From Levilactobacillus yonginensis (lineage in GTDB: Bacteria > Bacillota > Bacilli > Lactobacillales > Lactobacillaceae), in contig NZ_OZ061549.1 in NCBI RefSeq assembly GCF_964065165.1, positions 1,302,001 through 1,366,000 on the forward strand: 64,000 nucleotides of DNA, read 5' to 3'. This document shows positions 3,492-59,037 of the stretch, in pieces. The notes under the pieces are model-generated. The model was not told where the DNA came from. It saw only the letters and a list, made by a program, of their open reading frames with translations, and made no database searches. Made by a program: the position numbers and the translations under genes. How positions within the stretch are numbered: the stretch's first letter is position 1; each line of letters starts with the position of its first letter.

Positions 3492-3706
3492 GCCGCCTCC
3501 GGTCGTCAGGGTGGGGGCCGCCGGTTTCCAGGAGTGGTGCCAGCTGTGTCGATGGTGTTAAGCTGGACGCTTGGACTTTCCCAGTTTTACAGCATGGGGC
3601 GAGCCCGGAGACGCGTTGAGTTTCACGTGGCTTCAAGTCGAGGTGGGAGACCGCTCTTTGGCTCACGCCGGCCCCACAGCCGGTACCAATCCTGGAAACT
3701 GGAGGC
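3492..3706 (+). repeat. Cloverleaf repeat, copy A (forward)
   Basis: One of at least twelve dispersed elements. Terminal inverted repeats pair TTTCCAGGAGTGGTGCC with its near-complement at the far end. Inside are CTGTGTCGATGGTGTT on the left, CCCCACAGCCGG on the right, and three arms. Arm 1 pairs TGTTAAGCTGG with CCCAGTTTTACA and has a T-T mismatch; arm 2 has GGAGACGCG against CGTGGCTTC with an A-G mismatch. It lies between convergent genes. Short reading frames across it are not genes. Confidence 0.8.
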
Positions 3707-3715
3707 AGACAACGC

Positions 3716-5859: not shown

Positions 5860-6380
5860 ATCGAATTATCCCTACCTTTCGCATTAAACTCCGTCTTTAT
5901 TTTCTCTCTCTCGTGGGGAACATTCAACATCAAACGGAAATTATTTTACTTAAAAACTACTCATTAATGCGGTAGTTTACCATAATGACGAATGTGGATA
6001 GAAATAATGAAGCACTTTGTCATGATTTTCCAGTTTTATCAACCAAGTTTCAATATAATTTCAGCAATTGGCCCTCCACCAGACAGACTTTCAATATGAC
6101 GTGAAAACCAACCATTTCTAGGAAACAGCCTCCCGCTTAAAACTTCTATGTGATTTGGTAAACAACTGTTTGCCGTAACCGTCAGCCAAACTGACAGCCA
6201 CTCCCACTTAAAATAGCGGACACAATTTATATCGGTTACGTTAGGACAGGTAGAATATGACATGAACTCAGCGGCTACCCCAATAAACTTGGCAAAATTT
6301 TCAAAGGATCTACAACTTAACAAAATGACTGATCATGCTTAATTCATCAGGCCTACACGTTCAGATTCAGGTGTCATGTA
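5860..6380. other. Intergenic region upstream of the anchor-A gene
   Basis: AT-rich DNA without a convincing gene. A 94-codon minus frame at 6039-6323 has no ribosome site and no recognisable protein character. The promoter of the anchor-A gene must lie in the first 150 bases, but I cannot fix its boxes. Confidence 0.4.
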
Positions 6381-6568
6381 ACCGCAGGCAGCCAGGGATG
6401 GCACCCACTGTGTCGACAGTGTTGGTTGGCATTTTTAGCCAGCCTACAGCGTGGGACGTGCTGAAAGACTTGGCGGGCTTACCAAGGCTTTCCGCCGAGG
6501 ATAAAGACCGCCCTTTGGCTTTATCCGGTCCCCACAGTGCGGTACCATCCCTGGCTGCCGAAGGCGGC
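6381..6568 (+). repeat. Cloverleaf repeat, copy B (forward)
   Basis: Terminal inverted repeats GGCAGCCAGGGATGGCACC and GGTACCATCCCTGGCTGCC. Arm 1 pairs TGTTGGTTGGC with GCCAGCCTACA (T-T mismatch). Arm 2 pairs AAAGACTTGG with CCAAGGCTTT (A-G mismatch). Arm 3 pairs GGATAAAGACC with GGCTTTATCC (A-G mismatch). It lies between the terminator of the LRR gene and the anchor-A gene. Confidence 0.85.
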
Positions 6569-6583
6569 AATCATAGCTACCCA

Positions 6584-16503: not shown

Positions 16504-16520
16504 ATGTCCAACTTAAAAAA

Positions 16521-16609
16521 GTTTCTGGGGATACCGTCATACGGCACGAGAGTAAGTTGTGAACTTTGACCCATCGAACCTGTCAGTTAACACTGGCGTA
16601 GGGAGAAAC
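16521..16609 (+). promoter_or_regulatory. TPP riboswitch (THI box)
   Basis: The closing stem P1 pairs GTTTCT (16521) with AGAAAC (16604). Inside are the conserved TPP-aptamer blocks in order: GGGG, a P3 arm with CACGAGAG where CUGAGA is usual, ACCC, GAACCTG, and ACTGGCGTAGGGA. It precedes a thiamine-precursor transporter operon. Known mechanism: thiamine pyrophosphate binding lowers expression. The GAGA block departs slightly from consensus. Confidence 0.88.
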
Positions 16610-16618
16610 GCACGGATA

Positions 16619-16665
16619 CTTCATCTTGCGGCGGCGACTTCCCCTGAGATGAAGCTTTTTATTTT
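16619..16665 (+). terminator. Riboswitch-controlled terminator
   Basis: CTTCATCT pairs with AGATGAAG, followed by CTTTTTATTTT. It lies between the aptamer and the AAAGGAGG site of the first gene, so TPP binding should favour termination. Confidence 0.85.
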
Positions 16666-19876: not shown

Positions 19877-19952
19877 TGATCATTGAAGAATTGCCACCTC
19901 CGGCTACACGGATATCGATGTCACACGGCTTTCCTCAATCCAGCAGCTCAAA

Positions 19953-21039: not shown

Positions 21040-21165
21040 TTGAAAGTTGGTTTGATGTTTGCCGCCTCCGGCTACGTGACTGCTTTGAATCAATCGAATA
21101 CCGTGCTTAGTTAGCCTTTGACATCAGTCAGCCACGCAAACAACTCAACCCTAACTTTCAACCCT
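21040..21165. repeat. Large imperfect inverted repeat upstream of glpF
   Basis: TTGAAAGTTGGTTTGATGTT on the left matches the complement of AACTCAACCCTAACTTTCAA on the right with few changes. The left arm carries an extra GCCGCCTCCGGC mini-palindrome like the tips of the cloverleaf repeats. The rest of 21007-21402 shows no other feature. Confidence 0.45.
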
Positions 21166-26011: not shown

Positions 26012-26120
26012 GAAAGACGATCAAAGGTGGTTTAATCAATGAGCATTAACGTTAATAGACGAATAAGCCTGGTCTTGGATTGTTTATCTAGCGAAGTTCT
26101 GCCCGCTGTCGCACGTTTCA
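26012..26120 (-). repeat. Second repeat family, copy 2 (decayed)
   Basis: GACGATCAAAGGTGGTTTAA, TGAGCATTAACG and CTGTCGCACGTTTCA match the blocks of the family, but the central hairpin is eroded. It lies beyond the beta-helix gene's terminator. The rest of 25835-26011 is AT-rich promoter DNA of the membrane-protein gene. Confidence 0.6.
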
Positions 26121-26140
26121 ACTATCGACGTTGGGCGCGT

Positions 26141-26173
26141 AAAAAAAGGGCTTGAGACTTTTGCCTCAAACCC
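26141..26173 (-). terminator. Terminator of the beta-helix protein gene
   Basis: GGGTTTGAG pairs with CTCAAGCCC on the minus strand, followed by T7. Two repeat copies separate it from the stop codon. Confidence 0.85.
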
Positions 26174-26187
26174 TACGTATTTACTTT

Positions 26188-26286
26188 AGCTGAAACGTGC
26201 TACCGACAGGCAACTGGCTCCGCCTAACCCCATAAGACCAAGAATCCAGATTCAGGATTCTCAGTCTTATGACGTTAATGCTCACC
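26188..26286 (+). repeat. Second repeat family, copy 3
   Basis: GAAACGTGC, CTCCGCCTAACCCC, a hairpin of CATAAGACCAAGAATCC with GGATTCTCAGTCTTATG, then GACGTTAATGCTCAC. The right terminal block is missing. Confidence 0.75.
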
Positions 26287-26300
26287 CTTTGTTTTTTACT

Positions 26301-26424
26301 TAGCTGAAACGTGCGTCTGCCGGGCAGACAGCTCCGCCTAACCCCGCTAGACCAAGAATCCAAGTTCGGGATTCTCGGCCTAGCGACGTTAATGCTCACC
26401 GTCTAAACGCCCTTCGTCGCACTC
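26301..26424 (+). repeat. Second repeat family, copy 4, fused to a stop codon
   Basis: GAAACGTGCGTCTGCCGGGC, CTCCGCCTAACCCC, a hairpin of GCTAGACCAAGAATCC with GGATTCTCGGCCTAGC, GACGTTAATGCTCACC, then CCTTCGTCGCACT. Its last bases run into the stop codon of the beta-helix gene. It stands in tandem with copy 3. Confidence 0.8.
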
Positions 26425-32115: not shown

Positions 32116-32304
32116 GGCCGCCTGCGGCTGCCAGGGACCACGCTGTGGGGCAACCCCTGAAGCCTCGAAAATCACGAGTCTTCAGGGCGCCCAGAAACCT
32201 CGTGGCAGACCACCCCGAGTTTCCTAGGTCGGCCCATGTTCTAGGTGGCATAGCCCCCGCCACCAAGAACATCGACACAGCGCGGTCCCTGGCCTCCTCC
32301 GGCT
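32116..32304 (-). repeat. Cloverleaf repeat, copy C (reverse)
   Basis: Ends GCCAGGGACCACGCTGTG and CACAGCGCGGTCCCTGGC pair almost perfectly. Arms: CCCTGAAGCCTCG with CGAGTCTTCAGGG; AGAAACCTCG with CGAGTTTCCT; ATGTTCTAGGTGGC with GCCACCAAGAACAT. Each has one internal mismatch at the family position. It lies 30 bases after the galM terminator. Confidence 0.9.
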
Positions 32305-32990: not shown

Positions 32991-33428
32991 ATGGCAGAAG
33001 TTTTAACGGTTATCCGGGCTTTCGACGTCTTCGGCAACGGTGCCCAGACACCTTATGGTATTGACACACCTAAAATTAACGCCCAATTTGTTGGCATCAG
33101 TCCAGCGATGGCTTTCGACGTGAATAATCAACCGAAATTAGCCCGCCAAATCGAACGGCAGCTACGGCAAATCGAAGCGGAAATCCGCGATCAATTCCGC
33201 GATGAACTCATCAATCTGGGTGGCACTGATTTGACCCAAAACCTGCAGGTTACCCAACAATTGATCACCACTTTTAAGGAACGGTTGGAACAGGACCTCC
33301 TGGTTAAAAATCAGCTCGAGCTGGAAAGCCTGACGACCAGTGGCGAGTGGCTCACTTACTGGCAGGATGATGCGCCCTTAGTTAAGACCAAAGCGCAGCA
33401 ACAACAGAACTTGCCGCAAGATTTCTAA
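32991..33428 (+). CDS. Uncharacterised 145-residue protein
   Basis: Starts at ATG 32991 with AAAGGAG ten bases upstream; an in-frame extension into the rpsN terminator is not credible. The protein has no signal peptide or membrane segment. Residues 1-60 are mixed (VIRAFDVFGNGAQTPYGIDT). Residues 50-115 are strongly helical and Gln/Glu/Arg-rich (LARQIERQLRQIEAEIRDQF), suggesting a coiled coil. I do not recognise a family. It follows rpsN by 126 bases but beyond a strong terminator, so a separate promoter is needed. Confidence 0.7.
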   Translation: MAEVLTVIRAFDVFGNGAQTPYGIDTPKINAQFVGISPAMAFDVNNQPKLARQIERQLRQIEAEIRDQFRDELINLGGTDLTQNLQVTQQLITTFKERLEQDLLVKNQLELESLTTSGEWLTYWQDDAPLVKTKAQQQQNLPQDF

Positions 33429-33446
33429 CAATTACTTAGTTAGATT

Positions 33447-33628
33447 GCTGCCTCCGGTTGCCGGGAATGGTGGCCGCTGTTGGGGCCGGAGAAAGCCAAA
33501 GAACGGTCTTTCTCCTCGGCTTGAAACCGGGCCCAACAGCGGCCGTTTCCAAGCTCGCCCTACAACATAAGCTGGCCAGCCAGCTTATGTTGTCGTCACT
33601 GCGACCACCATTCCCGTCAACCTACGGC
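33447..33628 (-). repeat. Cloverleaf repeat, copy D (reverse)
   Basis: Begins 18 bases after the stop of the 145-residue protein. Ends TTGCCGGGAATGGTGGCCGC and GCGACCACCATTCCCGTCAA pair. Arms: GGAGAAAGCC with GGTCTTTCTCC; TTGAAACCGG with CCGTTTCCAA; and a perfect 14-bp stem ACAACATAAGCTGG with CCAGCTTATGTTGT. Here arm 1 has lost the usual mismatch. Confidence 0.88.
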
Positions 33629-33714
33629 TATATTTGCGTTTAAGTTAAATACGACGGAAATTCCATTATTGTTAGTTGTTGCGTCATCTCGACTAACTTT
33701 GAATTTTCAAACAA

Positions 33715-33756
33715 AAAGCGATCATCCGGCATTTCAGCTGGGTGGTCGTTTTCGTT
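33715..33756 (+). terminator. Hairpin with T-run
   Basis: AAAAGCGATCATCC pairs with GGGTGGTCGTTTT. It may end transcripts of the 145-residue protein gene after passing repeat D. Confidence 0.55.
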
Positions 33757-33770
33757 TATCTATATTTTAG

Positions 33771-33928
33771 ATACAGTCTAATTGTAGCGTCAGTGCTGAA
33801 CGCACCCACGGCACAGTTCCCAGCGGCCATAGACGGTTAAACACAAAAAGCAGCCACCTAACTAATAAGTCAGGGGACTACCTCATTTACATACAGTTTA
33901 ATTGTACTGTCAGTGCTGAGCGCACTCA
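33771..33928 (+). repeat. Direct repeat pair, 38 bases, 120 bases apart
   Basis: ATACAGT-TAATTGTA--GTCAGTGCTGA-CGCAC occurs at 33771-33808 and 33891-33928 with about five differences. The second copy is directly followed by cloverleaf copy E. Confidence 0.7.
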
Positions 33929-33951
33929 TCAGCAATCCAGTGAGCAACGCT

Positions 33952-34134
33952 CAGCCGGAGGACGCCAGGGACTGCGCTGTGTCGATGTTCTTAGCGGAAT
34001 GATTCTTTCCGCTTAGAACATGGGCCGACCTGGGAAACTCGCGTATTGGGCGAGGTTCTCAGGCGCCTGGGGAGACCGCACTTCGGCTCTCCAGGGTCGC
34101 CCCACAGCGCAGTCTCTGGCGGCCGCAGGCGGCC
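33952..34134 (+). repeat. Cloverleaf repeat, copy E (forward)
   Basis: Ends GCCAGGGACTGCGCTGTG and CACAGCGCAGTCTCTGGC. Arm 1 is ATGTTCTTAGCGGAA with TTCCGCTTAGAACAT, broken only by the T-T mismatch; arm 2 GAAACTCGC with GCGAGGTTC; arm 3 CCTGGGGAGACCG with CGGCTCTCCAGG. It ends 23 bases before the mapA stop; no other terminator for mapA is visible. Confidence 0.9.
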
Positions 34135-34157
34135 AAGCTCCACCACAACTCAACAAC

Positions 34158-36413
34158 CTACTTCAGTTCAACACTTTCACCAGCGACATCAATGGTCAGA
34201 GGATCACCACTAATCAGCTTGAAGTGTGGCCCGTCAGCGTGAACGCTGACTTCGACCAACCGGCCATGGAAGACCTGACGGAACGTGTAACTCGTCCAAG
34301 TCTTTGGCAAAAATGGAGCATAGTGCAGCTGGCCATTGCGAACTCGCATACCAGCAAACCCTTGAACCACAGCAATCCAACCACCGGTCATAGCTGTGAT
34401 GTGCAGCCCATCCGTGGTGTCGTTGTTGTAATTATCCAAGTCCAACCGTGCCGTCCGTGAGTAAAGTTCCACAGCCTTATCCTTGTAACCCAGGTCGGAA
34501 GCCAAGACGGAGTGAATAGCTGGTGACAGACTGGATTCGTGAACCGTCAGTGGTTCATAGAAATCAAAGTTGGCCTTCTTTTGTTCTGGCGTGTAATCGT
34601 CGATGAAGTCCCAGATTCCTTGCAGCACATCCCCTTGCTTGATGTAAGGTGACCGCAGAATCTTATCCCATGACCAGTGTTGGTTGATTGGCCGTTGGTC
34701 GGCTGGAATTGAGCTGACCGGTTCGATATCCTTGTCCAGGAAACCGTCATGTTGGACGAAGATGTTCAAATCCTTGTCATAAGGCAGGTACATCCGGTCA
34801 ACAATGTCTTGCCACTTAGCCTTTTCTTCATCAGAAATGGCCAACTTCTTGGCCGTTTCCTGGTCGACCTTACCCAAGATTTCCAACGTGTATTTCAACG
34901 TCCACTGTGCCAACATGTTTGTGTCCCAGTTGTTATCAACGTTGTTTTCGTACTCGTCAGCACCGGTAACCCCGTGGATCATGTATTTCTGATTCCGCTT
35001 GCTGAAGTGTACCCGGTCAGCCCAGAAGCGAGAAATTTCGCTGAGGACCTTGGCCCCTTCATGCAGAACGTAGCTGGTATCACCGGTGTAACGCGTGTAA
35101 TTGTAAATGGCAAAGGCAATATCACCATTCCGGTGGATTTCTTCAAAGGTAATTTCCCATTCATTATGGCATTCGATCCCGTCAAACGTCACCATTGGGA
35201 AGAGTGCCCCGTTCAGGCCCTGTTCCTTGGCGTTGACGTAGGCTCCGTCAAGTTGTTTGTAGCGGTACATCAACAGATTGCGCGTCACTTCGGGGTTCGT
35301 AATCCCCAAGTAAACGGGAACGGCGAAGGCTTCGGTATCCCAGTAGGTGGCACCACCATACTTCTCGCCAGTGAACCCTTTTGGTCCAATATTCAAGCGA
35401 GAATCCTTGCCATAGTAGGTAGAAAAGAGTTGGAACAAGTTAAAACGAATTCCTTGTTGCGACTCGTCGTCACCCTTGATGACCACGTCAGACTTTTCCC
35501 AACGGTCAGCCCAGATAGCGGTATGGGCGTTGAGCAATTCTGCGTAGCTTTCCTTAGCGACCTTGTCGCTAAGTTCATGCATGGCCGCGGTCAGCTTTTC
35601 CTGCGTGTCGTAATCACGTGAAGTAACCACGATGACCCGCTTTTCCAACGTCGTTTCAGCTTGAGGGGCCAGCTTGCCGTTGAAGGCAGTAACGACTTCC
35701 TTGTCATTAGGTTGGGCAACGTTGACAGCGTTTAAATCAGTAACCGTCCGCATTTCCATCCCAGAAGTGAACTGTGGCGTGCCAAATGGATTTGGCGTCG
35801 TCTTGGCAATGATACTGCCACTCTCAGCCCGTTGATCAGCATCCAACACGTCCCAGAAACGTTCGTCATAGTTGGCTTCTTCGTTCTTCACGTCGGCGTC
35901 GATACTTGGCTTGATGGTCACGTCTACACTGTCCGCGCTCAAGTTCTTAACGCTGACCCGTTGAACGGAAAGTTCTTGTTGGCTAACACTCAGAAAACGT
36001 TCAAACTTAAAGGCTACCCGCACGTCACCCCGTTCAACCACGAAGGACCGGTTTAATACGGCCTGCTTCATGTCTAGGTCCAAGACAAAGTCGCTGATCT
36101 TGTCCTTGGCCAAGTCGATGGCTTCACCATTAATTTCGATGGGCAATTTGATGAAGTTGACAGCATTCACAACTTTCCCAAAGTACTTAGGATAGCCGTT
36201 CTTCCACCAACCCACTCGGGTCTTGTCAGGATACCAGACACCACCTAGATAGATTCCTTGCAGGGAGTCACCGCTGTATCCTTCCTCAAAGTCACCACGC
36301 ATCCCCATGTACTCATTCCCTAAACTGGTCATGGATTCCTGGAGGCGTTTGTCTTTGGGATCAAACGTATGGGTAATGACGTTCCATGGCTGTACCTCAA
36401 AAATTCGTTTCAT
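34158..36413 (-). CDS. mapA: Maltose phosphorylase (GH65)
   Basis: 751 residues from ATG 36413; an ATG three codons earlier lies only two bases after the AAAGGAG site. Length and sequence fit GH65 maltose phosphorylases of lactobacilli. It starts MKRIFEVQPWNVITHTFDPK, then MGMRGDFEEGYSGDSLQG, GGATYWDTEAFAVPVYL and the catalytic-acid region VTGADEYENNVDNNWDTN. Cytoplasmic; cleaves maltose with phosphate to beta-glucose-1-phosphate and glucose, saving ATP. Transcribed behind malT, from which it is separated by 445 bases holding cloverleaf copy F and an operator-like palindrome. The usual partner beta-phosphoglucomutase gene is not in the window. Confidence 0.95.
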   Translation of the reverse strand: MKRIFEVQPWNVITHTFDPKDKRLQESMTSLGNEYMGMRGDFEEGYSGDSLQGIYLGGVWYPDKTRVGWWKNGYPKYFGKVVNAVNFIKLPIEINGEAIDLAKDKISDFVLDLDMKQAVLNRSFVVERGDVRVAFKFERFLSVSQQELSVQRVSVKNLSADSVDVTIKPSIDADVKNEEANYDERFWDVLDADQRAESGSIIAKTTPNPFGTPQFTSGMEMRTVTDLNAVNVAQPNDKEVVTAFNGKLAPQAETTLEKRVIVVTSRDYDTQEKLTAAMHELSDKVAKESYAELLNAHTAIWADRWEKSDVVIKGDDESQQGIRFNLFQLFSTYYGKDSRLNIGPKGFTGEKYGGATYWDTEAFAVPVYLGITNPEVTRNLLMYRYKQLDGAYVNAKEQGLNGALFPMVTFDGIECHNEWEITFEEIHRNGDIAFAIYNYTRYTGDTSYVLHEGAKVLSEISRFWADRVHFSKRNQKYMIHGVTGADEYENNVDNNWDTNMLAQWTLKYTLEILGKVDQETAKKLAISDEEKAKWQDIVDRMYLPYDKDLNIFVQHDGFLDKDIEPVSSIPADQRPINQHWSWDKILRSPYIKQGDVLQGIWDFIDDYTPEQKKANFDFYEPLTVHESSLSPAIHSVLASDLGYKDKAVELYSRTARLDLDNYNNDTTDGLHITAMTGGWIAVVQGFAGMRVRNGQLHYAPFLPKTWTSYTFRQVFHGRLVEVSVHADGPHFKLISGDPLTIDVAGESVELK

Positions 36414-36460
36414 GGTCAACATTTCTCCTTTATCTACGTTGGACTAAATGGTCTGACGTT

Positions 36461-36643
36461 GGTTCGCCTGCGGATGACAAGTACTGCGCTGTGGGGCAAA
36501 CCTGAAGCCTCCAAAACCGAGTCTTCAGGGCGACTTGAAACCTCACCTAACCCGTGAGTTTCCAAGCTCGGCCGTGTTGTAAGCCAGGACAAAACCCTGA
36601 CTAACAACACCGACACAGGCTCCGTACTTGTCTTCCTCCGGCT
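36461..36643 (-). repeat. Cloverleaf repeat, copy F (reverse), between malT and mapA
   Basis: Ends GACAAGTACTGCGCTGTG and CACAGGCTCCGTACTTGTC. Arms: CCTGAAGCCTC with GAGTCTTCAGG; CTTGAAACCTCAC with GTGAGTTTCCAAG; GTGTTGTAAGCCAGG with CCTGACTAACAACAC. It ends 48 bases before the mapA start codon, so a malT-mapA transcript would carry it in the mapA leader. Confidence 0.9.
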
Positions 36644-39499: not shown

Positions 39500-39540
39500 A
39501 CGCAAAAAGGGGGGGTCAACAAGGAACCCCTCTTTGCGTT
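39500..39540. terminator. Terminator-like hairpin upstream of malR
   Basis: ACGCAAAAAGGGG pairs with CCCCTCTTTGCGT. It could stop + strand transcripts heading into malR; no gene clearly needs it. A second hairpin follows at 39565-39618 (GACTGAAACACC with GGTGTTTAGTC). Confidence 0.45.
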
Positions 39541-39701
39541 TATTCCTAACTAATGGTTGAAAGGACTGAAACACCCACTGTTCCTGATACAACCAGGATT
39601 GGGTATTGGTGTTTAGTCAGACATAGTGGCGTGCCAATAATATTGCGTAAGTGCTGTCATTCAGGTATCTAAGCTAGCTGAGTTTCCAGAAACTCGCTTA
39701 A

Positions 39702-39880
39702 CCGGAGGCAGTCAGAGGTGGAGCCAGCTGTGGCGACGGTGTTAGCCGATTTTCGGCTTACACCGTGGGACGTGTTTGGAGACTGGTGCTTCTTCCAGGC
39801 TTCAAACCGAGCCGAAGGACCGCTTTTCAGGCCGCAGGCGTTCCCCACAGCAGGCGGAATCTCTGACTGCCGCAGGTGGC
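39702..39880 (+). repeat. Cloverleaf repeat, copy G (forward)
   Basis: Ends GGCAGTCAGAGGTGGAGCC and GCGGAATCTCTGACTGCC. Arm 1 CGGTGTTAGCCGA with TCGGCTTACACCG (T-T mismatch). Arm 2 GTTTGGAGACTGG with CCAGGCTTCAAAC (A-G mismatch). Arm 3 around GGACCGC and GCAGGCGTTCC is weaker. It lies between malR and the secreted-protein gene. Confidence 0.85.
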
Positions 39881-39951
39881 TGGGTGAGACTAGTTTTAAG
39901 TCTATAACGCTTAGGTGCAACTGATAGTTAACCAGTTGCCATTACAAGTTC

Positions 39952-44620: not shown

Positions 44621-44811
44621 GCCTTCGGTTGTCAGGGAGGGGCTCGCCGTGTCGGTGGTGTTAGTCACGGGTGACTTGGCCCGGGGCTTACAGCACGGGA
44701 CGAGTTTGGAAACTTGCGGGTTGGGCAAGGTTTCAAATCGAGCCGGAGGACCGCTTCTCAGGCCGCAGGCGGTCCCCACAGCGGGTCCCTCCCTGGCGGC
44801 CGAAGGCGGCC
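44621..44811 (+). repeat. Cloverleaf repeat, copy H (forward), abutting the kinase stop
   Basis: Ends GTCAGGGAGGGGCTCGCCG and GCGGGTCCCTCCCTGGC. Arm 1 uses GTGGTGTTAGTC with GGCTTACAGCAC (T-T mismatch). Arm 2 pairs GGAAACTTGC with GCAAGGTTTC (A-G mismatch). It ends three bases before the stop codon of the histidine kinase and lies in that gene's 3' untranslated region. Confidence 0.88.
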
Positions 44812-46152: not shown

Positions 46153-46834
46153 CGGGGGCCTCCATAATATACCCCGCGTTCCGGATAGTTCGCAACGACA
46201 GGTCGCTACCGGCGTGCTTAAGTTCCTTACGTAAATTGCTCATATAAACTTCAACCACGGACAGACTAGTCTCCGAGTCAAACCCCCATAAACGATTAAA
46301 TATCTGTTCCTTCGTGATAATGGTCCCGGGATTGGCTACCAGATAAGCCAACAAATCAAATTCCCGACCTTTTAAGGTTAATGGGTTACCGTCAAAAGTT
46401 GCCAGGTGCTTGCTGGTATTGATTTCCAACTGACCCAGACTGATGACATCACTGCTATTTAGGTGCCCCGTCCGCTTCAACAGCGCCTTCATGCGAGCTA
46501 ATAGTTCTTCCCGGTGAAATGGCTTGGTTACGTAGTCATCCGCCCCATCGTTAAACCCCCGCAACTTATCGGCAATCGTATCCTTAGCGGTTAAAATCAG
46601 CACCGGTGTGCCTACCCCTTTGTTGCGGATGTGTAGCAACAGGTCTAAGCCGCTTTCGCCAGGCAACATCAAGTCTAGAATAATGGCGTCAAACACACCC
46701 TGACTCGCTAGAAATTCTCCCTGTTCACCGTCAAATGCGGTGGTTGTTTCACAAATCGGCTGGATTAATTCAACAATGTCCGCAGACAGTTCTTTTTCAT
46801 CTTCTACAACTAATACCTTGGCTGAGCTACTCAA
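46142..46834 (-). CDS. OmpR-family response regulator, CiaR-like
   Basis: 230 residues. Receiver domain with VLVVEDEKEL, phosphorylation site Asp54 in AIILDLMLPG, Thr in LILTAKD and Lys in DDYVTKPF. The C-terminal OmpR-type winged helix has LTLKGREFDLLAYLVANPGT and SVVEVYMSNLRKELKH. The start is TTG at 46834, eight bases after AAAGGAGG. A DNA-binding partner of the downstream kinase; targets are unknown, though envelope genes are usual for this group. Confidence 0.92.
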   Translation of the reverse strand: MSSSAKVLVVEDEKELSADIVELIQPICETTTAFDGEQGEFLASQGVFDAIILDLMLPGESGLDLLLHIRNKGVGTPVLILTAKDTIADKLRGFNDGADDYVTKPFHREELLARMKALLKRTGHLNSSDVISLGQLEINTSKHLATFDGNPLTLKGREFDLLAYLVANPGTIITKEQIFNRLWGFDSETSLSVVEVYMSNLRKELKHAGSDLSLRTIRNAGYIMEAPDEQ

Positions 46835-46850
46835 CGGGCGTTCCTCCTTT

Positions 46851-47074
46851 AAAATTCTAAAGTTAACAATAGTTATTAATATTACGTAGTCGTTGTTTGG
46901 CCGCCTACAGCCAACAAATTACTTAGCTGCAGGTTGAATATCCGCTGACTTCCCGGCTTACACAGTGTTCTTAGACGACTATGATCAACGACTGAAACAG
47001 TCGTTGTCAATTGGACCAAAGCTGCTAAGTGTCCGCATTTTCCGACTGTCGTCGTGGTAAAACACAATCAGAGT
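46851..47074. other. Upstream region of the two-component operon with a decayed repeat
   Basis: Contains the operon promoter. At 46896-47060 it has scattered cloverleaf-like words (GGCCGCC, CGGCTTACA) and a perfect hairpin AACGACTG-AAA-CAGTCGTT at 46990. Possibly an eroded copy. Confidence 0.3.
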
Positions 47075-47262
47075 CGAAAGCAGCCAAGGATGGAGCCGAC
47101 CGTGTCAGTGGTGTTAGCTGGCGATTTTTTCAGCCAGCTTATAACACGGGCGACTTTGGCGGCACGGGTCCTTCATGGCTGCAAGCGAGCGAGAAGACTG
47201 GTGCTTTTCCAGTCTGAAGCATCCCCACAGCAGGCGGAGTTCCTGGTAGCCAGAGCGCGGCC
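47075..47262 (+). repeat. Cloverleaf repeat, copy I (forward)
   Basis: GAAAGCAGCCAAGGATGGAG on the left and CGGAGTTCCTGGTAGCC on the right are degraded ends. Arm 1 GTGTTAGCTGGC with GCCAGCTTATAACAC keeps the T-T mismatch. Arm 2 GAGAAGACTGG with CCAGTCT is fully paired. The 470 bases to the yfhO-like gene hold nothing else I can name. Confidence 0.75.
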
Positions 47263-50533: not shown

Positions 50534-50689
50534 TGCCGCCTCCAGAGGTTGGGGGCAATCCTCGCTGTGGGGACCGGGGGAAGCCACAGAACGGTCTTCC
50601 CCCTCGACTTGAAACCTTGCCCAATCCGCAAGGCTTCGAGCTCGTCCCGTGGCGTTAGAACGAACATTGTCTCCAGCCTCTTCCGGCTA
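50534..50689 (-). repeat. Cloverleaf repeat, copy J (reverse, one arm lost)
   Basis: GGGGGAAGCC with GGTCTTCCCCC and TTGAAACCTTGC with GCAAGGCTTCGAG are intact arms next to CTGTGGGGACC. The third arm and right terminal repeat are degraded (ACATTGTCTCCAGCC). Confidence 0.8.
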
Positions 50690-50913: not shown

Positions 50914-51181
50914 AGCCAGCCAGTGCCAGGGAGGGTTCCCGCAGTGTCGATGGTGTTGGTCTGGGTGAACTTCCCGGACTTACAGCATGCGATGCGTTTG
51001 AAGACTTATTTGGGCTTTAATAAGGCTTCAAACCAAGCTGGAGGACCGCTCCTCAGGCCGCAGGCGTTCCCCACAGCGGGGATCCTCCCTGGCACTGGCT
51101 GGCGGAATCCCGAATCTACACCACGGGATGCGTTCCTCACAGCGGGCAGCGGGGACTCTCCCTGGCGCCGGCTGGCGGAAT
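50914..51181 (+). repeat. Cloverleaf repeat, copy K (forward) with duplicated right end
   Basis: Ends CAGTGCCAGGGAGGGTTCCC and GGGGATCCTCCCTGGCACTG pair. Arm 2 GTTTGAAGACTTATT with AATAAGGCTTCAAAC keeps the A-G mismatch. The main copy ends at 51105. At 51129-51181 its right end is present a second time (GCGTTCCTCACAGCGGG then CTCTCCCTGGCGCCGGCTGG). Confidence 0.85.
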
Positions 51182-54111: not shown

Positions 54112-54132
54112 GACTGGTCAGGTGCCCATCGT

Positions 54133-54302
54133 TCCGGTGGTCAGGTACGCCGCCTGTGGGACCGTCTAAAGCCTATGGTGCGGTCTTTAGACTCGACTTT
54201 AAGCCTCCAAGGACGAGTCTTAAAGATCGTCCTAGTCTTGTAAGACCAAGCAGCCCACTTGTTCTAACAAGACCGTCACGGGCGCCGCACCTGACCACCT
54301 CC
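54133..54302 (-). repeat. Cloverleaf repeat, copy L (reverse)
   Basis: Ends GGTGGTCAGGTACGCCGCC and GGCGCCGCACCTGACCACC. Arms GTCTAAAGCC with GGTCTTTAGAC, CTTTAAGCCTC with GAGTCTTAAAG, and GTCTTGTAAGA with TTCTAACAAGAC, each with the family mismatch. The sequence differs strongly from the other copies but the fold is the same. Confidence 0.85.
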
Positions 54303-54404
54303 ACTAGCGACTAACCAGTAAATACAGATATGCCTTCTCCACTAAAATTGACTTACTCAGCAACTAATTCTGTACTTCTAGTCGTCATCAAAACCATACA
54401 TAAT

Positions 54405-58782: not shown

Positions 58783-59037
58783 TCTCTTCTATTCTCTTTG
58801 CTGGTCGTTTTCCCTGTATTTCCGCCTTCGGCTACCTTAGCTCGAGCTACCGACCCACTATCACTACAACTTTACGTCACATTCATGCTTCCAAGTAAGT
58901 CATTAATCCAAGCTCAACGGCACACGCTTGATTCTTCCAAATTTTTGGTTAAAGCAACGTCTGACCATTTTATCTAATACTAGTGTCAGTCGCAGGCTTT
59001 CGGGCAGGGTGTGGCTGTATGGAACCGGAGACGGCGT
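58783..59037. other. Intergenic region with a repeat-tip motif
   Basis: CCGCCTTCGGCTACC at 58822 is the small palindrome found at the tips of cloverleaf repeats, here alone. Nothing else is recognisable. Confidence 0.35.

Follow-up and report, generated by a model that had tools for sequence, protein, structure and literature searches.

The genome of Levilactobacillus yonginensis carries a family of dispersed repeats of about 180 nt that share a three-armed fold, covarying stems, mismatches fixed at particular places and a bias between the two strands. These features suggest that the folded shape of one strand has been preserved by evolution, and that this shape is perhaps recognised by a putative protein.

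A covariance model was built from 16 copies, with G-U pairs allowed on the sense strand, where sense means the direction of copy E on the + strand. In the window, the stretch of 64,000 nucleotides that was analysed, the model gave 14 rows; two were opposite-strand echoes of copies E and C, and 12 copies remained. On the + strand these are copies A (3516-3710), B (6380-6569), E (33953-34134), G (39700-39881), H (44623-44808), I (47094-47239, a weak match of 36.1 bits) and K (50918-51103). On the - strand are copies C (32116-32304), D (33446-33629, head to head with E), F (36462-36643), J (50534-50688) and L (54127-54305). At least 141 matches were found in the genome among the best 150 candidates scored, two of them overlapping each other, and six further matches came from additional stretches searched with the model. 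Copies 83-86% identical to E stand in flanks that, judged by eye, are unrelated. The model-fitted alignment had 143 rows, from which two opposite-strand rows were dropped and 141 kept; two distinct sets of 141 are thus used below, the genome matches for gene context and the alignment rows for pair counts.

Copy E matches the covariance model (R1) with 193.5 bits. Its sense strand folds as DNA at -70.4 kcal/mol (z -10 against shuffles, which were run as DNA only), and the opposite strand as RNA at -104.4 kcal/mol (z -8). The predicted fold consists of a closing stem, arm 1 and a short stem around arms 2 and 3, so that its shape would be two stacked three-way junctions and not a plain cloverleaf. 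The two sides of the closing stem P1 (33954-33981 and 34103-34130) form an inverted repeat with 86% complementarity, and its pairs covary in the family. Arm 1 (P2, 33985-34021) has a 7-base loop and T facing T (T.T) at 33992/34014. The short stem P3 (34022-34025 with 34099-34102) encloses arm 2 (P4, 34029-34063), with A facing G (A.G) at 34037/34055 and a G.T wobble at 34033/34059, and the predicted arm 3 (P5, 34066-34095), in which A 34075 is either bulged or facing G 34086. All of these parts are given on the + strand. The neighbouring protein encoded at 34158-36422 is 99% identical to its L. tongjiangensis counterpart and 90% identical to that of L. brevis.

The repeat could not be assigned to a known RNA family, as no window copy had an Rfam match at the gathering threshold, and a search of 33400-34200 returned only three microRNA matches far below threshold. 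A tRNA identity for the cloverleaf was rejected as well, no tRNA being found in the window. The only Rfam match at the gathering threshold in the window is a TPP riboswitch (RF00059) at 16516-16621. A further strong fold, made of nested inverted repeats, lies at 26040-26323 and does not match the cloverleaf model. Among the open-access titles listed, none concerned this repeat family.

The stems of the repeat covary. In the model-fitted alignment, 34 column pairs were significant at E < 0.05 (131 of the 141 rows), and all of them lie in helices: 11 of the 15 listed arm-1 pairs, 7 of the 16 listed arm-2 pairs, 14 pairs on the closing-stem diagonal and 2 in arm 3, one of the latter being one step out of register with the other. 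The test was a custom script modelled on R-scape, not R-scape itself, with a null in which the inferred substitutions were replayed along a FastTree tree at random columns in 30 replicates. No significance was reached by the 5 innermost pairs of the closing stem or by the 4 P3 pairs, all of which hardly vary. A structure-free MAFFT alignment, made from sequence alone with 144 of 145 rows used out of 147 copies, gave 20 significant pairs, 19 of them in the same helices. Copies were also compared with their orthologues in the relative G010 (mean identity of copy pairs 0.919). Between orthologous copies, the stems differ at 4.3% of sites and other columns at 6.5%, and in ten pairs of the 69 orthologous copies both bases had been replaced so that a different Watson-Crick pair resulted. 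A first-pass annotation of this DNA had proposed that compensating changes, together with fixed unpaired positions, mean that the folded form itself is selected. The significant covariation in both alignments, the slower divergence of the stems and the mismatches described next, which are not scattered and are held across genera, support this proposal.

In arm 1, T.T occupies one fixed place in 126 of 139 copies of the model-fitted alignment, and in arm 2, A.G occupies one fixed place in 123 of 140. The corresponding place of arm 3, the least well aligned arm, in which the A may be a bulge, has A.G in 78 of 123 copies. At the 13 other arm-1 pairs, T.T is found in only 0 to 4 copies each. The remaining arm-1 pairs are Watson-Crick in 82 to 99% of copies, apart from 35/65 (63%) and 46/54 (75%), the pair that closes the loop. 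In arms 1 and 2, between two and four Watson-Crick types are used at most pairs, and little variation is seen at a few, such as T-A at 38/62 next to T.T. Thus, the earlier description of arm 1 as variable yet paired is correct for most of its stem pairs, which vary by paired changes, and A.G was rightly reported for arms 2 and 3 of most copies. If the letters of that annotation follow coordinate order, its list of copies with T.T (A, B, C, E to I, K and L) is also confirmed: T.T is present in 9 of the 11 window copies in the alignment, and copy I, too weak for the alignment, has T.T when read from its sequence. The exceptions it named were recovered, since copy D pairs A-T at this place, copy J has an arm 1 that is lost or not alignable, and A.G is missing from arm 2 of copy I in its sequence. 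Two recurring mismatches were absent from its list: G.G at the fourth arm-1 pair (35/65) in 48 of 139 copies, and A.A or C.A at 25/152 of the closing stem in 50 of 141.

Conserved letters surround the mismatches. The mismatch columns have an entropy of 0.32-0.42 bits against a median of 0.97 for paired columns. The expectation that they would vary less than paired columns holds against this median but not throughout: conservation is higher still in 9 to 10 of the 52 paired columns, so the mismatch columns belong to the least variable ones without being the most conserved of all. In the comparison of orthologous copies, 11 of 136 T.T and A.G pairs had changed, about the rate of an ordinary stem pair, which counts against the reading preferred below. 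Over larger distances, 19 copies from malP-flanking loci of Lactiplantibacillus, Companilactobacillus, a Limosilactobacillus bin and uncultured Lactobacillus were compared. Their arms are quite different, yet T.T is present in 15 of the 19, and where the arm for A.G exists, in 16 copies, 15 have this mismatch.

The two strands are not equivalent. Seven positions were treated as special, namely five mismatch-prone ones and the one-sided 81/105 and 72/145; in the stems outside them, 142 G.T and 44 A.C were counted in the direction of copy E. Position 81/105, the arm-2 wobble position (34033/34059 in E), has 63 G.T and 2 A.C, and position 72/145 shows the opposite, with 24 A.C and 5 G.T. With these two positions added the totals are 210 G.T and 70 A.C, and over all listed positions they are 218 and 98. 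Both the A.C excess at 72/145 and the frequent C.A at 25/152 count against the preferred reading. By copy, 69 of 141 have more G.T, 16 have more A.C and 56 are equal; the last two groups likewise count against it. Among the 69 copies with orthologues in G010, 100 changes were between Watson-Crick and G.T, 50 between Watson-Crick and A.C (p 5e-5), and 51 between Watson-Crick and other mismatches. The model permits G-U and therefore tilts the alignment-based and the orthologue counts towards the sense strand; wobble-free folding of both strands is free of this tilt and gave 191 to 101 and 209 to 100, or G.T over A.C at about 2:1. The excess of G.T over A.C in three counts implies that the fold of one strand is constrained. 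The ratio of G.T to A.C was 97:34 and 39:9 in copies classed by the direction of the gene at their 3' side, and 6:1 in unclassed copies.

The family is not confined to one species. Matches at E 1e-6 were found in 17 of 28 named genomes when the best 96 candidates per genome were scored. L. andaensis, Lactiplantibacillus fabifermentans and Companilactobacillus nantensis had at least 96 matches each, Furfurilactobacillus milii at least 66, L. brevis at least 7 and Pediococcus parvulus at least 1; L. plantarum EGD-AQ4 had at least 54 among the 96 scored, the best at E 6e-12. Lentilactobacillus kefiri and hilgardii had 0 matches at this threshold among the best 96 candidates, a zero that may miss copies; C. 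zhongbaensis likewise had 0, yet two weaker matches are present at its malP locus. At E 1e-3, matches were found in 23 of 40 genomes, comprising 23 of 24 from this genus (G022 being the sole genome without) and 0 of 16 from other families of the order. All genome counts are lower bounds, as the best 150, 67 or 96 candidates were scored. In L. tongjiangensis (L049:8292-9675), tandem cloverleaf units of about 295 bp stand between copies D and E, an array that is reduced in the window. A shorter dispersed subfamily of about 150-165 nt lacks arm 3 (L171:3483-3635, L176:1272-1424, L205:1546-1712), and its ends resemble AGCCGNGAGG and CCGTAAGGCG.

The repeats are placed in a definite orientation, next to stop codons and terminator-like T-runs. 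Gene context was taken from a simple reading-frame caller; 46 of 141 copies overlap a called frame by more than 60 bp, and these frames were taken as spurious. Stop codons are commoner on the 3' side: 74 of 141 copies have one no more than 150 bp from their 3' end, and 20 have one as close to their 5' end; among the 69 unpaired copies the numbers are 43 and 11. This arrangement implies that the adjoining mRNAs mostly carry the other strand. In 49 of 141 copies, a terminator-like T-run on the strand of the gene is found no more than 60 bp from the 3' end, against 7 to 10 copies in three other counts. Among 39 neighbouring pairs less than 1 kb apart, 31 are head to head, so that the sense strands point away from each other, 1 has the reverse arrangement and 7 share one direction, one of the 7 being the two overlapping matches; the relative G010 has 16, 1 and 5 such pairs. 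Head-to-head pairs separated by a few hundred bases were also seen in Lactiplantibacillus and uncultured Lactobacillus (L081, L114, L116, L117, L118, L119), so this arrangement is not confined to one genus. Orientation with respect to replication is weak, with a tally of about 82:59 copies in a frame set by dnaA at 1.756 Mb and by skew turns near there and near 0.5 Mb; this is unlike the prediction for an enzyme that acts on the lagging strand and counts against the preferred reading. At the malP locus of L. tongjiangensis, andaensis, lanxiensis, wangkuiensis and paucivorans, copies read as standing after the stop codon and ahead of a terminator-like hairpin, and in L. namurensis as following a hairpin of this kind; no copy was found there in L. 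brevis, hammesii, fuyuanensis and acidifarinae.

Dispersed copies in unrelated flanks and the tandem units indicate that the family has spread. Orthologous flanks were present in the examined part of G010 for 103 of 141 copies, of which 70 were of like length, 13 shorter and 20 longer; some of these 33 differences are projection artefacts, as D and E scored shorter though G010 has both. Four of six sites compared read as internal deletions in the lineage of the window, with one or both element ends left, and the other two, copy G and 46750-47260, gave no clear reading. No clean insertion relative to G010 was seen in seven regions compared by BLAST and three that were aligned; one region is a deletion that left part of a composite repeat in this genome. 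Nor was a clean empty site or a target site duplication (TSD) found with up to 141 joined-flank queries over the sequence then assembled for the search and in these comparisons with G010. Four joined-flank matches inside repeated DNA were not accepted as empty sites and were taken to be the positions of the copies themselves or of neighbours in tandem. With regard to the terminal inverted repeats of DDE-type MITEs, the two ends of the element form an imperfect pairing, and both in addition carry the short direct repeat CCGNAGG.

Larger and smaller arrangements of the element were also observed. Copy G stands within a composite repeat (window 39500-39920) with inverted ends ACTAAAGGTTGAAAG and CTTTCAACCTTTAGT, of which up to nine other copies were found; its longest versions carry two head-to-head cloverleaves, one of which is missing in several versions. 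Solo element ends (AGCCGNAGGYGG) without a cloverleaf lie at 19894-19905, 21062-21073 and 58822-58833, and the one at 19894-19905 reads as what is left of a copy found in the relative G010.

A gene that might mobilise the repeats was sought among neighbouring proteins and Y1 transposase loci, and none linked to them was found. Among neighbouring proteins, the recurring families listed read as frames within repeats or as ordinary paralogues. In the genus, 21 of 29 genomes have Y1 transposase matches, IS200-like by reading of their translations. However, 14 Y1 loci with 1 to 1.5 kb flanks (8 from this genome, and 6 of 53 matches in other genomes) contained 0 repeat matches, and no Y1 match was found in G002, G005, G006 (72% complete), G012, G017 and G023, which hold 43 to at least 67 copies; Y1 was therefore rejected as the partner. 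Nucleotide searches of plasmids with copies E, B and C and of phages with copy E, which are weak for so variable a family, returned no match and do not support carriage by either. Thus, of the first-pass interpretation, selection on the fold stands, and a protein or single-strand transposase as its agent gained no backing from a linked gene, a Y1 locus or a clean empty site.

The closest functional parallel may be the REP sequences. REPs are folded single-stranded DNA recognised in a strand-specific manner, and, according to part of PMC8266576, conserved stem mismatches matter for the activity of E. coli TnpA-REP: mutations that correct them severely affect cleavage, although SELEX selection for the mismatch bases was weaker than expected. 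The present repeats resemble REP/BIME with TnpA-REP (RAYT) in high copy number, intergenic position, strand-specific constraint, fixed mismatches and, in 40 of 141 copies, a GT-A(G/A)C start. They differ in length, being about 180 nt with three arms against a hairpin of 21-65 nt as given for REPs in part of PMC6006769, and in their head-to-head arrangement of opposed copies. A GTAG/GTGG-like 5' foot is missing in most copies (GT directly precedes the A(G/A)C start in 40 of 141, with G in 95% of those), and no Y1 transposase was linked at the 14 Y1 loci. Membership in REP/RAYT thus fails on three features, the 5' foot, a cognate flanked Y1 gene and the short hairpin, and the comparison is apt in the sense that the repeats may work like REPs.

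Other known repeats share some of these characters. BOX and RUP of Streptococcus pneumoniae, as described in part of PMC3049150, number about 110-125 copies, have compact folds with paired termini, are enriched between convergent genes and show slow present mobility, all of which resembles the repeats studied here. BOX is modular (boxA-B-C), and both BOX and RUP cause TSDs, unlike the present family, for which none was found; the passages of PMC3049150 that describe them give neither the strand bias nor the fixed mismatches seen here. The bcr1 repeat of the Bacillus cereus group, given as 147-167 bp in the relevant part of PMC2267715 and as MITE-like in that of PMC3446304, is also a dispersed structured repeat of similar size, and belongs to another genus. 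The ends of IS200/IS605 elements are recognised as a folded single strand via unpaired bases, as stated in part of PMC8266576; unlike them, the repeats showed no transposase gene linked to them at the 14 Y1 loci. Integron attC sites are also recognised as a folded single strand through unpaired bases.

We prefer a folded single DNA strand over RNA as the target of selection, and give roughly even chances to the reading that these repeats of Lactobacillaceae are old, mobile, non-coding and dispersed and act via one folded DNA strand, with the mismatches as protein contacts. The functional strand would be the one reading GCCGGAGG...GGCGGC, folded as DNA, in which the closing stem and two stacked three-way junctions would carry three arms. 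The stem sequence would be largely free while pairing holds, and T.T in arm 1 and A.G in arm 2, often also in arm 3, would be kept as contact points for a putative protein by which the element is, or once was, mobilised in the form of folded single-stranded DNA. We infer DNA rather than RNA, a recognising protein and past mobility from the patterns above. A narrower version, in which a cloverleaf-sized element moves as folded single-stranded DNA by an enzyme outside IS200/RAYT, with T.T and A.G as its recognition marks and with stop codons and terminators setting the direction of insertion, is doubtful.

The sense strand may instead act as RNA, either a structured non-coding RNA or an RNA-borne parasite, made by read-through or from its own promoter, with the mismatches contacting an RNA-binding protein. 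RNA accommodates G.T pairs better than DNA does, so the G.U-type tolerance in the stems speaks for RNA and against DNA; the conserved letters around the mismatches and the strong folding of either strand of copy E also fit this explanation. Against it, promoters in the 5' flank are not enriched (28 of 141 with at most 3 mismatches, against 38 in shuffled sequence) and a sense promoter was rejected; moreover, nearby genes mostly transcribe the other strand, the strand bias is independent of the direction of the 3' gene, and the window copies lack Rfam matches. It is a substantial possibility, if on the unlikely side. The nearby transcripts also bear on the proposal that the repeats are 3'-UTR structures of adjoining genes, serving mRNA protection or transcription control as proposed for REP and BOX. 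The 3' end lies within 30 bp of a stop codon in 32 of 141 copies, and the malP copies of five species read as lying ahead of the terminator-like hairpin, both of which favour it. The mRNA is mostly the antisense strand, however, on which A.C would stand in place of the tolerated pairs, and A.A and C.T in place of the fixed mismatches; the sense-strand bias is therefore not accounted for by selection on 3'-UTR RNA. Four related species also lack the malP copy, and copies decay by deletion. We regard 3'-UTR RNA as an improbable target. Finally, a mutation process, template switching from one hairpin arm to the other, could keep paired arms alike even if the fold is not selected. Long imperfect palindromes readily undergo this kind of correction, and deletions were seen at the stem base; but this process would erase mismatches, whereas T.T and A.G persist across genera, and it predicts no bias of G.T over A.C, which makes it very improbable.

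In some lactic-acid bacteria, a repeat of about 180 bases is thus present a hundred times or more. With so many copies in many species, the family forms a large natural experiment, in which the stems are largely free and single mismatches are not. Two exact mismatch steps can be named as candidates for protein contact, and the strand bias separates selection at the level of DNA from that at the level of mRNA. The repeats thus point to a putative partner protein in food-relevant bacteria, a strain of L. plantarum included.
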